Of a DNA stretch of 64,000 bases, positions 30,266 through 56,811 are shown one piece after another. Under the pieces are notes generated by a model. It saw only the letters and a list, made by a program, of their open reading frames with translations, had not been told where the DNA came from and did not search any database. Within the stretch, counting starts at the first letter, position 1, and every line of letters begins with the position of its first letter. The stretch comes from Gordonibacter sp. 28C. Lineage in GTDB: Bacteria; Actinomycetota; Coriobacteriia; Coriobacteriales; Eggerthellaceae. Where the stretch lies: assembly GCF_003339845.1 (NCBI RefSeq), contig NZ_PPTR01000001.1:62001-126000 (forward strand). The letters run 5' to 3'. A program made the translations under genes and the position numbers.

Positions 30266-31339
30266 GTGAAAAATCTAGCCGGCATACAGGATCGCATACC
30301 CACCGGGGCCTACAAACTCCTGTTGGTCGTGGCCACCGTCATATGGGGCCTCAGCTTCGTCGTCATGAAAGACGCCGTGGACGTGCTGCAGCCGGCCTAC
30401 CTCATCGGCTTCCGCTTCCTGGCCACGGGCGCCATCCTGCTCGCGCTGTTCCTCCGCCGCCTGCGCATCGCCTTCTCGCATGAGACGGCGAAGGACTACC
30501 TGGTGAAGGGTATCATCCTGGGCGTGCTGTGCTACTTGGCGTTCTGGGTGCAAACCATCGGGCTCGATCACACCACGCCGGGCAAGAACGCCTTCCTTAC
30601 GGCCACGTACTGCGTCATCGTGCCGTTCGCCTGGTGGGTCATCGCGCGCAAGCGGCCCACGGCGTTCAATCTCGTCGCCGCCGTCATGGCCGTGGCCGGC
30701 ATAGGCCTGGTGTCGCTCACGGGCTCGCTTTCCGAGCTGTCCATGGGCTTCGGCGACGCCATGACGCTGGTGTCGGCGCTGCTGTTCGCCGTGCACATCG
30801 TGTACGTGTCGAAGTTCTCCGAGACGAACGACGTGCTCGTGCTCACCACGCTCCAGTTCATCGTGGGCGGCGTGTGCGGCGTGGCGTACGGCGCCTGCTT
30901 CGAAACGCTGCCCCCGGCCGAGGCGCTCACGCCTGCCTTCTGGATAAACATGGCCTACCTCGTGGTGTTCGCCTCGTGCGTGGCGCTCGTCATCCAGAAC
31001 GTGGCGCTCGCGCACGTGCCGCCGGCGCAGGCCTCGTTGTTCCTGAGCTTGGAAAGCGTGTTCGGCGTGCTGTTCAGCGTGCTGCTGTATGGGGAAGAGA
31101 TAGGGCTTCGCCTCGTGGGCGGCTTCGCCCTCATCTTCGTTGCTATAGTGGTGAGCGAAACGTTTCCGTTGAAACGCAAAGCGGACGACGACGTGCCCGC
31201 CGTGGCGCTGGAAACCCCCGGAGGGCCCGTGGTGTCCTTGGAGGCGGCGGTTGCGCTGGACGGCCGGGGCACCTGCGATCTGGCAGCCGTCGATTCGACG
31301 CAAGAGGAGGCATCATGGAGCAAGAGCGGAACAACATAG
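30266..31339 (+). CDS. EamA-family (DMT) permease
   Basis: A 357-residue membrane protein with ten predicted helices in two EamA repeats: LLLVVATVIWGLSFVVMKDAV to the ITRKRP-like loop, then MTLVSALLFAVHIVYVSKF to the last helix with ASLFLSLESVFGVLFSVLLYGEEIG. It ends in a ~55-residue acidic and Ala/Thr/Ser-rich cytoplasmic tail that is longer than usual. Family members export amino acids or other metabolites. The start is GTG 30266, immediately downstream of a TATAAT box, so the message is probably leaderless. Its last 25 bases overlap the shikimate kinase gene in another frame. Confidence 0.85.
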   Translation: MKNLAGIQDRIPTGAYKLLLVVATVIWGLSFVVMKDAVDVLQPAYLIGFRFLATGAILLALFLRRLRIAFSHETAKDYLVKGIILGVLCYLAFWVQTIGLDHTTPGKNAFLTATYCVIVPFAWWVIARKRPTAFNLVAAVMAVAGIGLVSLTGSLSELSMGFGDAMTLVSALLFAVHIVYVSKFSETNDVLVLTTLQFIVGGVCGVAYGACFETLPPAEALTPAFWINMAYLVVFASCVALVIQNVALAHVPPAQASLFLSLESVFGVLFSVLLYGEEIGLRLVGGFALIFVAIVVSETFPLKRKADDDVPAVALETPGGPVVSLEAAVALDGRGTCDLAAVDSTQEEASWSKSGTT

Positions 31340-31827
31340 TCCTGATCGGCATGCCCAGTGCGGGCAAGTCCACGTTGGGCATCGTGCTGGCGAAGATACT
31401 GAACTACCAGTTCGTCGATGCCGACCTCGTCATTCAGAGCCAGTGCGACAAGACGCTGCAGAAGCTCATCGACGCGTGCGGCCCCGAGGGCTTCATCGAG
31501 GTGGAGAACGAGATCCTTCGCGACATCCAGGCCGAGAACTCCATCATAGCCACGGGCGGCTCGGCCGTGTACTCCGACGAGGCCATGAAGCACCTGGCCG
31601 AGATCGGACGCGTGGTGTACCTGCAGATATCCTACGAGGAGCTGGTGCGCCGCCTGCACGACTTGCAGGAGCGCGGCGTGGTGCTCAAGGGCGGCATCGG
31701 CATGAGCCTGCGCGAGCTTTACGACGAGCGCAAGCCGCTGTACGAGCAGTACGCCGAGATCACCGTGAACATCGACGACCTGTCCATCACCGCCGCCGCC
31801 CGCAAAGTGGCCGACGCGCTGCGCTAG
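31315..31827 (+). CDS. aroK: Shikimate kinase
   Basis: A 170-residue P-loop kinase matching AroK in length and motif order: Walker A GMPSAGKST (residues 12-20), FVDADLVIQ with the shikimate-contacting Asp, ENEILRD, the TGGSAVY segment (TGGG in most enzymes; one Gly is Ser here), a lid region and an LREL-YDERKPLYEQYA tail with the late-domain Arg. It phosphorylates shikimate in chorismate synthesis. ATG 31315 follows AAGAGGAGG and lies inside the 3' end of the EamA gene, so the two are translationally linked. The other aro genes are not in this window. Confidence 0.85.
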   Translation: MEQERNNIVLIGMPSAGKSTLGIVLAKILNYQFVDADLVIQSQCDKTLQKLIDACGPEGFIEVENEILRDIQAENSIIATGGSAVYSDEAMKHLAEIGRVVYLQISYEELVRRLHDLQERGVVLKGGIGMSLRELYDERKPLYEQYAEITVNIDDLSITAAARKVADALR

Positions 31828-32203: not shown

Positions 32204-32241
32204 ACCGTCCCGGCTCGTCCTATATTCACGATTGCGAAAAT

Positions 32242-32269
32242 GGCCTGTGTTTCACGTGAAACACAGGCC
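32242..32269. promoter_or_regulatory. parS: parS centromere site in a 28-bp perfect palindrome
   Basis: Bases 32248-32263 read TGTTTCACGTGAAACA, the 16-bp consensus ParB-binding parS sequence with no mismatch. It sits inside a 28-bp perfect palindrome (outer ends GGCCTG and CAGGCC), 38 bases after the tRNA-binding-protein stop. ParB loads at such sites to organise and segregate the origin region. The hairpin is followed by TTGTTTTATC, so it could also work as a terminator for the upstream operon. Confidence 0.85.
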
Positions 32270-32338
32270 GTCCCTTGTTTTATCTGGGAAAACGGTATTT
32301 TGGTGATACTTCAGCTAGAGCAGCTAGAAGTTAAAATT

Positions 32339-37433: not shown

Positions 37434-37552
37434 CAGTCTCCTCCTCGATGCGAACGCGAACGTGCAAGTTCGGCGCAACCCGTTGGGATGGGCGGCCGTT
37501 CTGGAGGATATGCGGGTGAGGGAAAGCGCAGGCGCGCAACAAGTTGGCAGCT

Positions 37553-37645
37553 TTGCTCTGTCCTTTTGCCTGAGAGTTTCAGCGGGCCATTCGGCCGCCT
37601 TGCCCCTTCGGCACCCGTGAACGGGATTCTCCAGAGGCCCCTCCT
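37553..37645 (-). ncRNA. Glycine riboswitch (single aptamer visible)
   Basis: Read on the minus strand, this leader has the glycine aptamer core in order: CTCTGGAGAATCCCG, then GCCGAAGGGGCAAG, then AACTCTCAGGCAAAAGGACAG. It lies 120 bases before the start of the AGCS symporter gene and is transcribed in the same direction. Only one aptamer is visible, whereas many glycine riboswitches are tandem; single-aptamer forms with a ghost helix are known. Confidence 0.92.
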
Positions 37646-56472: not shown

Positions 56473-56625
56473 GCGGTACCTCCTTGATGGGCCTGGGGCA
56501 TGGTTGAGCGAATGTGCCCTATATCATAGCACGCAACCCATGCATGACGAAAATGCACGTCAAAAGTTCAGATACGGGGGAGGGGCGTTGCGGTGTTGGA
56601 AGGCTTTGCAGGGGTGGCTTACCCC

Positions 56626-56738
56626 CTGTCATCCTGAGCGGAGCGCGAAGCGCGGAGTCGAAGGATCTTCGGCGAAAGGGGTCTTGCGCTGTTGAAGATC
56701 CTTCGACTCCGGCCTACGGCCTCCGCTCAGGATGACAG
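56626..56738. repeat. REP-type palindromic element
   Basis: A 113-base inverted repeat: left CTGTCATCCTGAGCGGAG to GAGTCGAAGGATCTTC, right GAAGATCCTTCGACTC to CTCCGCTCAGGATGACAG. The arms pair along most of their length, with a mismatched internal loop where the left arm has CGCGAAGCG and the right has GGCCTACGGCC. This TGTCATCCTGAGC-type palindrome is seen in many unrelated genomes. The rest of the 339-base gap 56473-56811 shows nothing. Confidence 0.8.
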
Positions 56739-56811
56739 AGGGCGGGATCGCTTGTCTGGGTGACAGGGGCGCGCGATGTTCAGGAGTGAGAAAGCGCTGG
56801 GAGGTCGTGTG

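Follow-up and report, generated by a model that had tools for sequence, protein, structure and literature searches.

The window analyzed here, a 64,000-nt stretch (G000:C1:62001–126000) of the draft genome of a Gordonibacter gut bacterium (3.86 Mb, 32 contigs), contains a 28-bp perfect palindrome that is probably an origin-region parS site doubling as a transcription terminator. Its middle, at positions 32248–32263, is the 16-bp consensus parS sequence TGTTTCACGTGAAACA without a mismatch, and the whole palindrome (GGCCTGTGTTTCAC/GTGAAACACAGGCC) spans 32242–32269, as the first-pass annotation had reported. This exact match is the sole one in the window, in which no other stretch matches the 16-mer with three or fewer mismatches (0.12 expected from shuffled sequences). 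As DNA, the central 16 bp would be where the chromosomal ParB nucleates, and the site would be an outlying member of the parS cluster centered on dnaA and parAB. As RNA, the palindrome with its GGCCTG/CAGGCC arms would fold into the hairpin that terminates the upstream operon and would probably also terminate the convergent gene for a helix-turn-helix (HTH) protein. The sequence itself, the presence of ParAB, synteny, stem covariation and conservation are shown; ParB binding and termination we infer. Separately, part of the Eggerthellaceae has spread exact parS copies chromosome-wide, and this family-wide expansion is more surprising than the window site.

The palindrome is intergenic, as had been claimed, and has the 3′ end of a converging gene on either side. 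On the plus strand, the gene immediately preceding the hairpin encodes a 124-residue tRNA-binding-domain protein (PF01588; 31829–32203). Directly upstream on the same strand is an open frame of 432 codons (30529–31827) with a C-terminal shikimate kinase domain (PF01202, residues 277–431 of 432), which probably has either a later true start or an extra N-terminal part. The convergent neighbor on the minus strand encodes an 80-residue Cro/CI-type HTH protein (PF13443; 32339–32581). Elsewhere in the window, a glycine riboswitch aptamer (RF00504, 60.7 bits) is found at 37548–37644 on the minus strand.

The transcripts of both strands fold into a stem, at least 12 bp long, capped by an ACGT loop (ACGU in RNA), at −26.0 and −25.1 kcal/mol and with z-scores of −5.9 and −5.2. 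The operon thus has a stable stem-loop at its 3′ end, one of the features expected of an intrinsic terminator. The T-rich stretch said to follow the palindrome does exist on the plus strand (32275–32281, read from the sequence), but it begins five bases past the stem, with GTCCC preceding TTGTTTT, and this displacement of the U-tract counts against the preferred reading. For a minus-strand transcript, a UUUU run (32237–32240, likewise read from the sequence) begins one base past the stem.

The evolution of the hairpin was followed in five Gordonibacter genomes including this one, of which G095 has only a remote match to the 124-residue protein gene. A hairpin lies 3′ of the gene in all four genomes with a close orthologue. 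Across these four sequences, both partners have changed in five of the 16 stem pairs, 93.8% of the cells are paired, and the covariation score, resting on four sequences, was equaled by one of 500 shuffles. In this alignment, the stem is shown to be kept by compensatory changes as the sequence drifts, and the terminator role that the first-pass annotation had considered possible is borne out to that extent. Such covarying arms also suit a site that is a terminator only, in which the parS match would be a relic, or a sequence that happened to suit the stem, with no ParB function here. This alternative, which we consider rather unlikely, draws further on G097, where the core reads TGTTTCGCATGAAACA, with two changes in its center, and a perfect 18-bp stem is intact; the hairpin at this locus can persist without an exact parS, which also speaks against the preferred reading. 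In other genera, the sequence past close orthologues of the 124-residue protein gene is unrelated, and by eye, without folding, differing terminator-like hairpins, another point for this alternative, follow the gene at the same place in L055, L057, L058, L059 and L063. The spot after this gene tends to have a terminator, the tip of which is parS in Gordonibacter. Against a role in termination only, three of the four orthologous Gordonibacter loci have the 16-mer without a mismatch, including the ACGT loop that the hairpin does not need, while the arms differ.

A genome-wide scan for the 16-mer, the check proposed along with the first-pass annotation, returned 26 exact, eight one-mismatch and one two-mismatch copies; a reversed control pattern gave one match per strand at up to two mismatches and no exact match. 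Fourteen of the exact copies are located on contig C14 between 3129 and 24539, surrounding parB and the single dnaA match of the genome, and 11 besides the window site are outside C14. ParB (C14:20169–21224, with both Pfam domains) and ParA (C14:19190–20176) are encoded beside dnaA on this separate contig, in agreement with the statement that parAB is not near the site. The parS proposal had been tied to the presence of a ParB in the genome, and a chromosomal ParB and ParA are indeed found, accompanied by a parS cluster. This ParB shares 93% identity with its counterpart in Gordonibacter sp. Marseille-P2775. At the positions that we take to match R173 and G201, in an alignment made by eye with the Caulobacter sequence, it has R and G, and it resembles ParB proteins of the parS type. 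A TIGR00180 search of this genome returned, besides the chromosomal ParB, two more frames with a ParB domain, neither of them Noc-like by eye. R173 and G201 are ParB residues that differ in Noc, according to the accessible text of PMC7383237. The window site likewise is the parS sequence and not a Noc-binding site (NBS).

The window contig is not joined to C14 in this assembly, and its distance to dnaA is known by synteny only. In single-contig relatives, the orthologous gene and site are 76 kb (G041), 138 kb (G096) and 64 kb (G097) from dnaA. The window locus is therefore origin-proximal by synteny (64–138 kb), and this part of the first-pass annotation stands. The reason given for it does not: the site alone is insufficient, because exact copies occur chromosome-wide in the Eggerthellaceae, and in this genome contigs other than C14 have 12 of the 26, the window's included.

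Long palindromes around the parS core recur in this genome. Perfect arms of at least 13 nt occur at seven of the 26 exact sites, where the 16-mer itself gives 8 (binomial probability about 5e-16 at one-in-four matching; the base composition of the G003 genome described below puts the matching rate nearer 0.28). Several of these sites are located in gaps between convergent open frames of the dnaA/parB cluster, in which the long-arm sites are 18439 and 18478 after rsmG, 21305 after parB, 23476, and 23530. Three long-arm sites of the cluster were folded and form hairpins, as do sites 2095222 and 2334601 of G003, a genome of another genus, with arms of 20 and 23 nt. Because the arrangement recurs in the dnaA/parB cluster, a parS core in a longer palindrome between convergent frames looks like a usual housing in this genome, and its occurrence in the cluster itself argues against the window palindrome being a terminator only.

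The exact 16-mer was searched for in 246 genomes of the class. The 178 genomes outside the Eggerthellaceae have 0–4 copies each, while 18 of the 68 inside have at least 25 (range 25–148) and 10 have more than 100. Among the 24 named genomes covered, high counts were obtained for Eggerthella sinensis (109), Rubneribacter badeniensis (122), Adlercreutzia faecimuris (107), Gordonibacter pamelaeae (78) and Enteroscipio rubneri (48), and low ones for Adlercreutzia equolifaciens (4), Slackia piriformis (5) and Collinsella stercoris (1). A literature search, with many subscription papers outside its reach, yielded no account of a parS expansion in this group.

The expansion was characterized in G003, of which 2.4 of 3.38 Mb were covered (all but the stretches 1.2–2.0 and 3.2–3.38 Mb), with densities taken from the fetched sequence only. 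The 2.4 Mb contain 87, 13, 5, 8 and 28 copies with 0–4 mismatches, respectively, against means of 0, 0.02, 0.1, 2.5 and 27.9 for 60 control palindromes with shuffled halves. Chance matching was rejected, since the 87 exact copies contrast with 0 exact for the 60 controls. Judged from sequence, the shape of this spectrum says that the exact 16-mer, loop included, is held by selection in G003. The relative's 16-mer is far tighter genome-wide than a hairpin requires, a further point against termination as the only role. The density per 100 kb is 60 within 10 kb of dnaA and then 21, 9, 4 and 2 outward; it is 0 at 600–1000 kb, 3.1 at 1000–1200 kb, 0.75 at 1200–1400 kb and 3.6 at 1400–1700 kb, opposite dnaA, so that copies persist at the terminus. 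The accessible text of PMC7022226 places the vast majority of parS sites within 20% around the origin. With genes predicted by a purpose-written script, 72 of the 87 sites are outside predicted genes, compared with 703 of 4000 random positions. Between this Gordonibacter and G041, the core is identical at 218 of 224 positions and the flanks at 979 of 1830, in a comparison biased toward conservation by the choice of G041 loci for holding the motif. It covers 14 of the 21 dispersed loci, the window site included; the other seven lacked a counterpart in the fetched set, or none was chosen.

The copies fall into two classes. Far copies form a second class, marked by a directional tail, and the window site groups with the untailed near-origin class. 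The tail pattern, TNYGTNC, was set after the lists had been seen, and its p-values are therefore descriptive. In G003, a tail is present on at least one side at 32 of 41 sites located at least 200 kb from dnaA and at 10 of 46 nearer ones, leaving 36 of the 46 near-origin sites without it. By eye, the tail is present at 10 of the 12 exact sites that the Gordonibacter genome has outside C14, compared with none of the 14 on C14. The window site has no directional tail, for which the narrower form TNYGTWC was taken here; its outward flanks read CAGGCC on both sides. Examples of tailed far copies are TTTGTTCG, TCCGTTCG and TTTGTACG, at L006, L019, L020, L021, L022 and other loci, near 1501, and at several loci the tail is shared by two Gordonibacter species. 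Among the matches listed, no pattern of tail polarity relative to replication was seen by eye. A second ParB or Noc serving the far copies was rejected as a candidate, the two extra ParB-domain frames of this genome being of the mobile-element type by eye; in G003, the 2.4 Mb covered contained no second chromosomal ParB or Noc.

Several further features were observed around these copies. Tailed G003 copies sometimes form inverted pairs separated by 34 bp, with linkers that resemble one another, in a BIME-like arrangement (G003:C1:100651–100700 and 612756–612805). At G003:C1:557475, 565316, 1074188 and 2477716, TCCATGA is located upstream at an equal distance in all four, which suggests related promoters or copied flanks. 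In the window, an inverted repeat with 49-nt arms that are 88% complementary, beginning CCCCCTGTCATCCTGAGCG, is found at 56622–56742, and CATCCTGAGCG strings resembling it are beside some G003 copies of the 16-mer (256572, 2279484).

The consensus of a LexA box is a CGAACRNRYGTTYC dyad. The tail together with the inner half of parS reads as a putative LexA-type box, for example CGAACAAATGTTTC, the lexA promoter of this genome contains CGAACAAATGTTTT and two copies of CGAACAAAGGTTC, and GAAACACTTGTTCG is located in front of a dinB-like gene named by eye. These resemblances would suit an operator for another protein, LexA or the neighboring HTH protein, in place of a ParB site, an explanation that we find improbable for the window palindrome. 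The window site is untailed and flanked by the 3′ ends of two converging genes, and a genome-wide scan with the LexA consensus found no match at it. When G041 is aligned here, the HTH gene's side is unmatched except for a 55-bp stretch beyond the site; G041 thus has the site yet no alignment on the side of that gene. Nor are the tailed G003 copies tied to promoters: 21 of the 42 are between tandem genes, eight between divergent and six between convergent ones, and seven are inside a predicted gene. LexA operators as a full explanation of the far copies are weakened by this gene context. A dispersed REP/BIME-like repeat that contains parS by chance is very improbable, for although 11 other exact copies lie off the parAB contig and some copies in G003 and G096 are, among the matches listed, inverted dimers with a 34-bp spacing and linkers that are alike, the window site is without the tail found on 10 of the 12 exact copies off the dnaA contig, the part conserved between copies is the 16-mer and not a longer repeat unit, and the 87/13/5/8/28 spectrum is unlike that of decaying copies.

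An outlying origin-domain parS built into a terminator is the most economical account of the window palindrome, which makes the site a candidate for one palindrome acting as both centromere and terminator. At such a dual element, ParB and RNA polymerase would meet on one stretch of DNA. For Eggerthella and Gordonibacter, we tentatively raise the possibility that ParB, beyond marking the origin, acts on 25–148 complete parS sites chromosome-wide, comprising graded plain sites near the origin, some in terminators, and distant tailed parS/LexA-like sites. If this is true, ParB would do chromosome-scale work for which other bacteria use separate proteins: organizing the arms, controlling division in a Noc-like manner or providing a link to DNA damage. 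Complete parS sites are described as lying mostly in the origin domain, and where they lie steers condensin loading. Genomes with more than 100 exact copies reaching the terminus would provide a natural test of ParB and condensin with loading sites everywhere.

Among known systems, the arrangement recalls the chromosomal parS sites of ParAB–Smc systems, with which it shares the 16-bp consensus, one chromosomal ParB, parAB beside dnaA and sites clustered around the origin. It differs from them in that part of the Eggerthellaceae has 25–148 exact copies extending to the terminus, whereas the bacterial range is one to 20 parS sites in the accessible text of PMC10197239. The NBS of Firmicutes are also 16-bp palindromes, present in many copies around the chromosome and bound by a ParB-family protein; the sites here, in contrast, are parS and not NBS, and copies are found near the terminus, where NBS are absent according to the accessible part of PMC7383237. 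In Pseudomonas aeruginosa, ParB has been found at hundreds of half-parS sites, contacting the chromosome at many places away from the origin, as described in the accessible part of PMC7022226. Those sites are heptamers, whereas the ones here are complete 16-bp candidate sites, known from their sequence. Finally, the window palindrome resembles intrinsic terminators between convergent genes in its strong stem, short loop, nearby U runs and compensatory stem evolution, and it departs from them in that an exact parS makes up the upper stem and the loop, and in that the U-tract is displaced.
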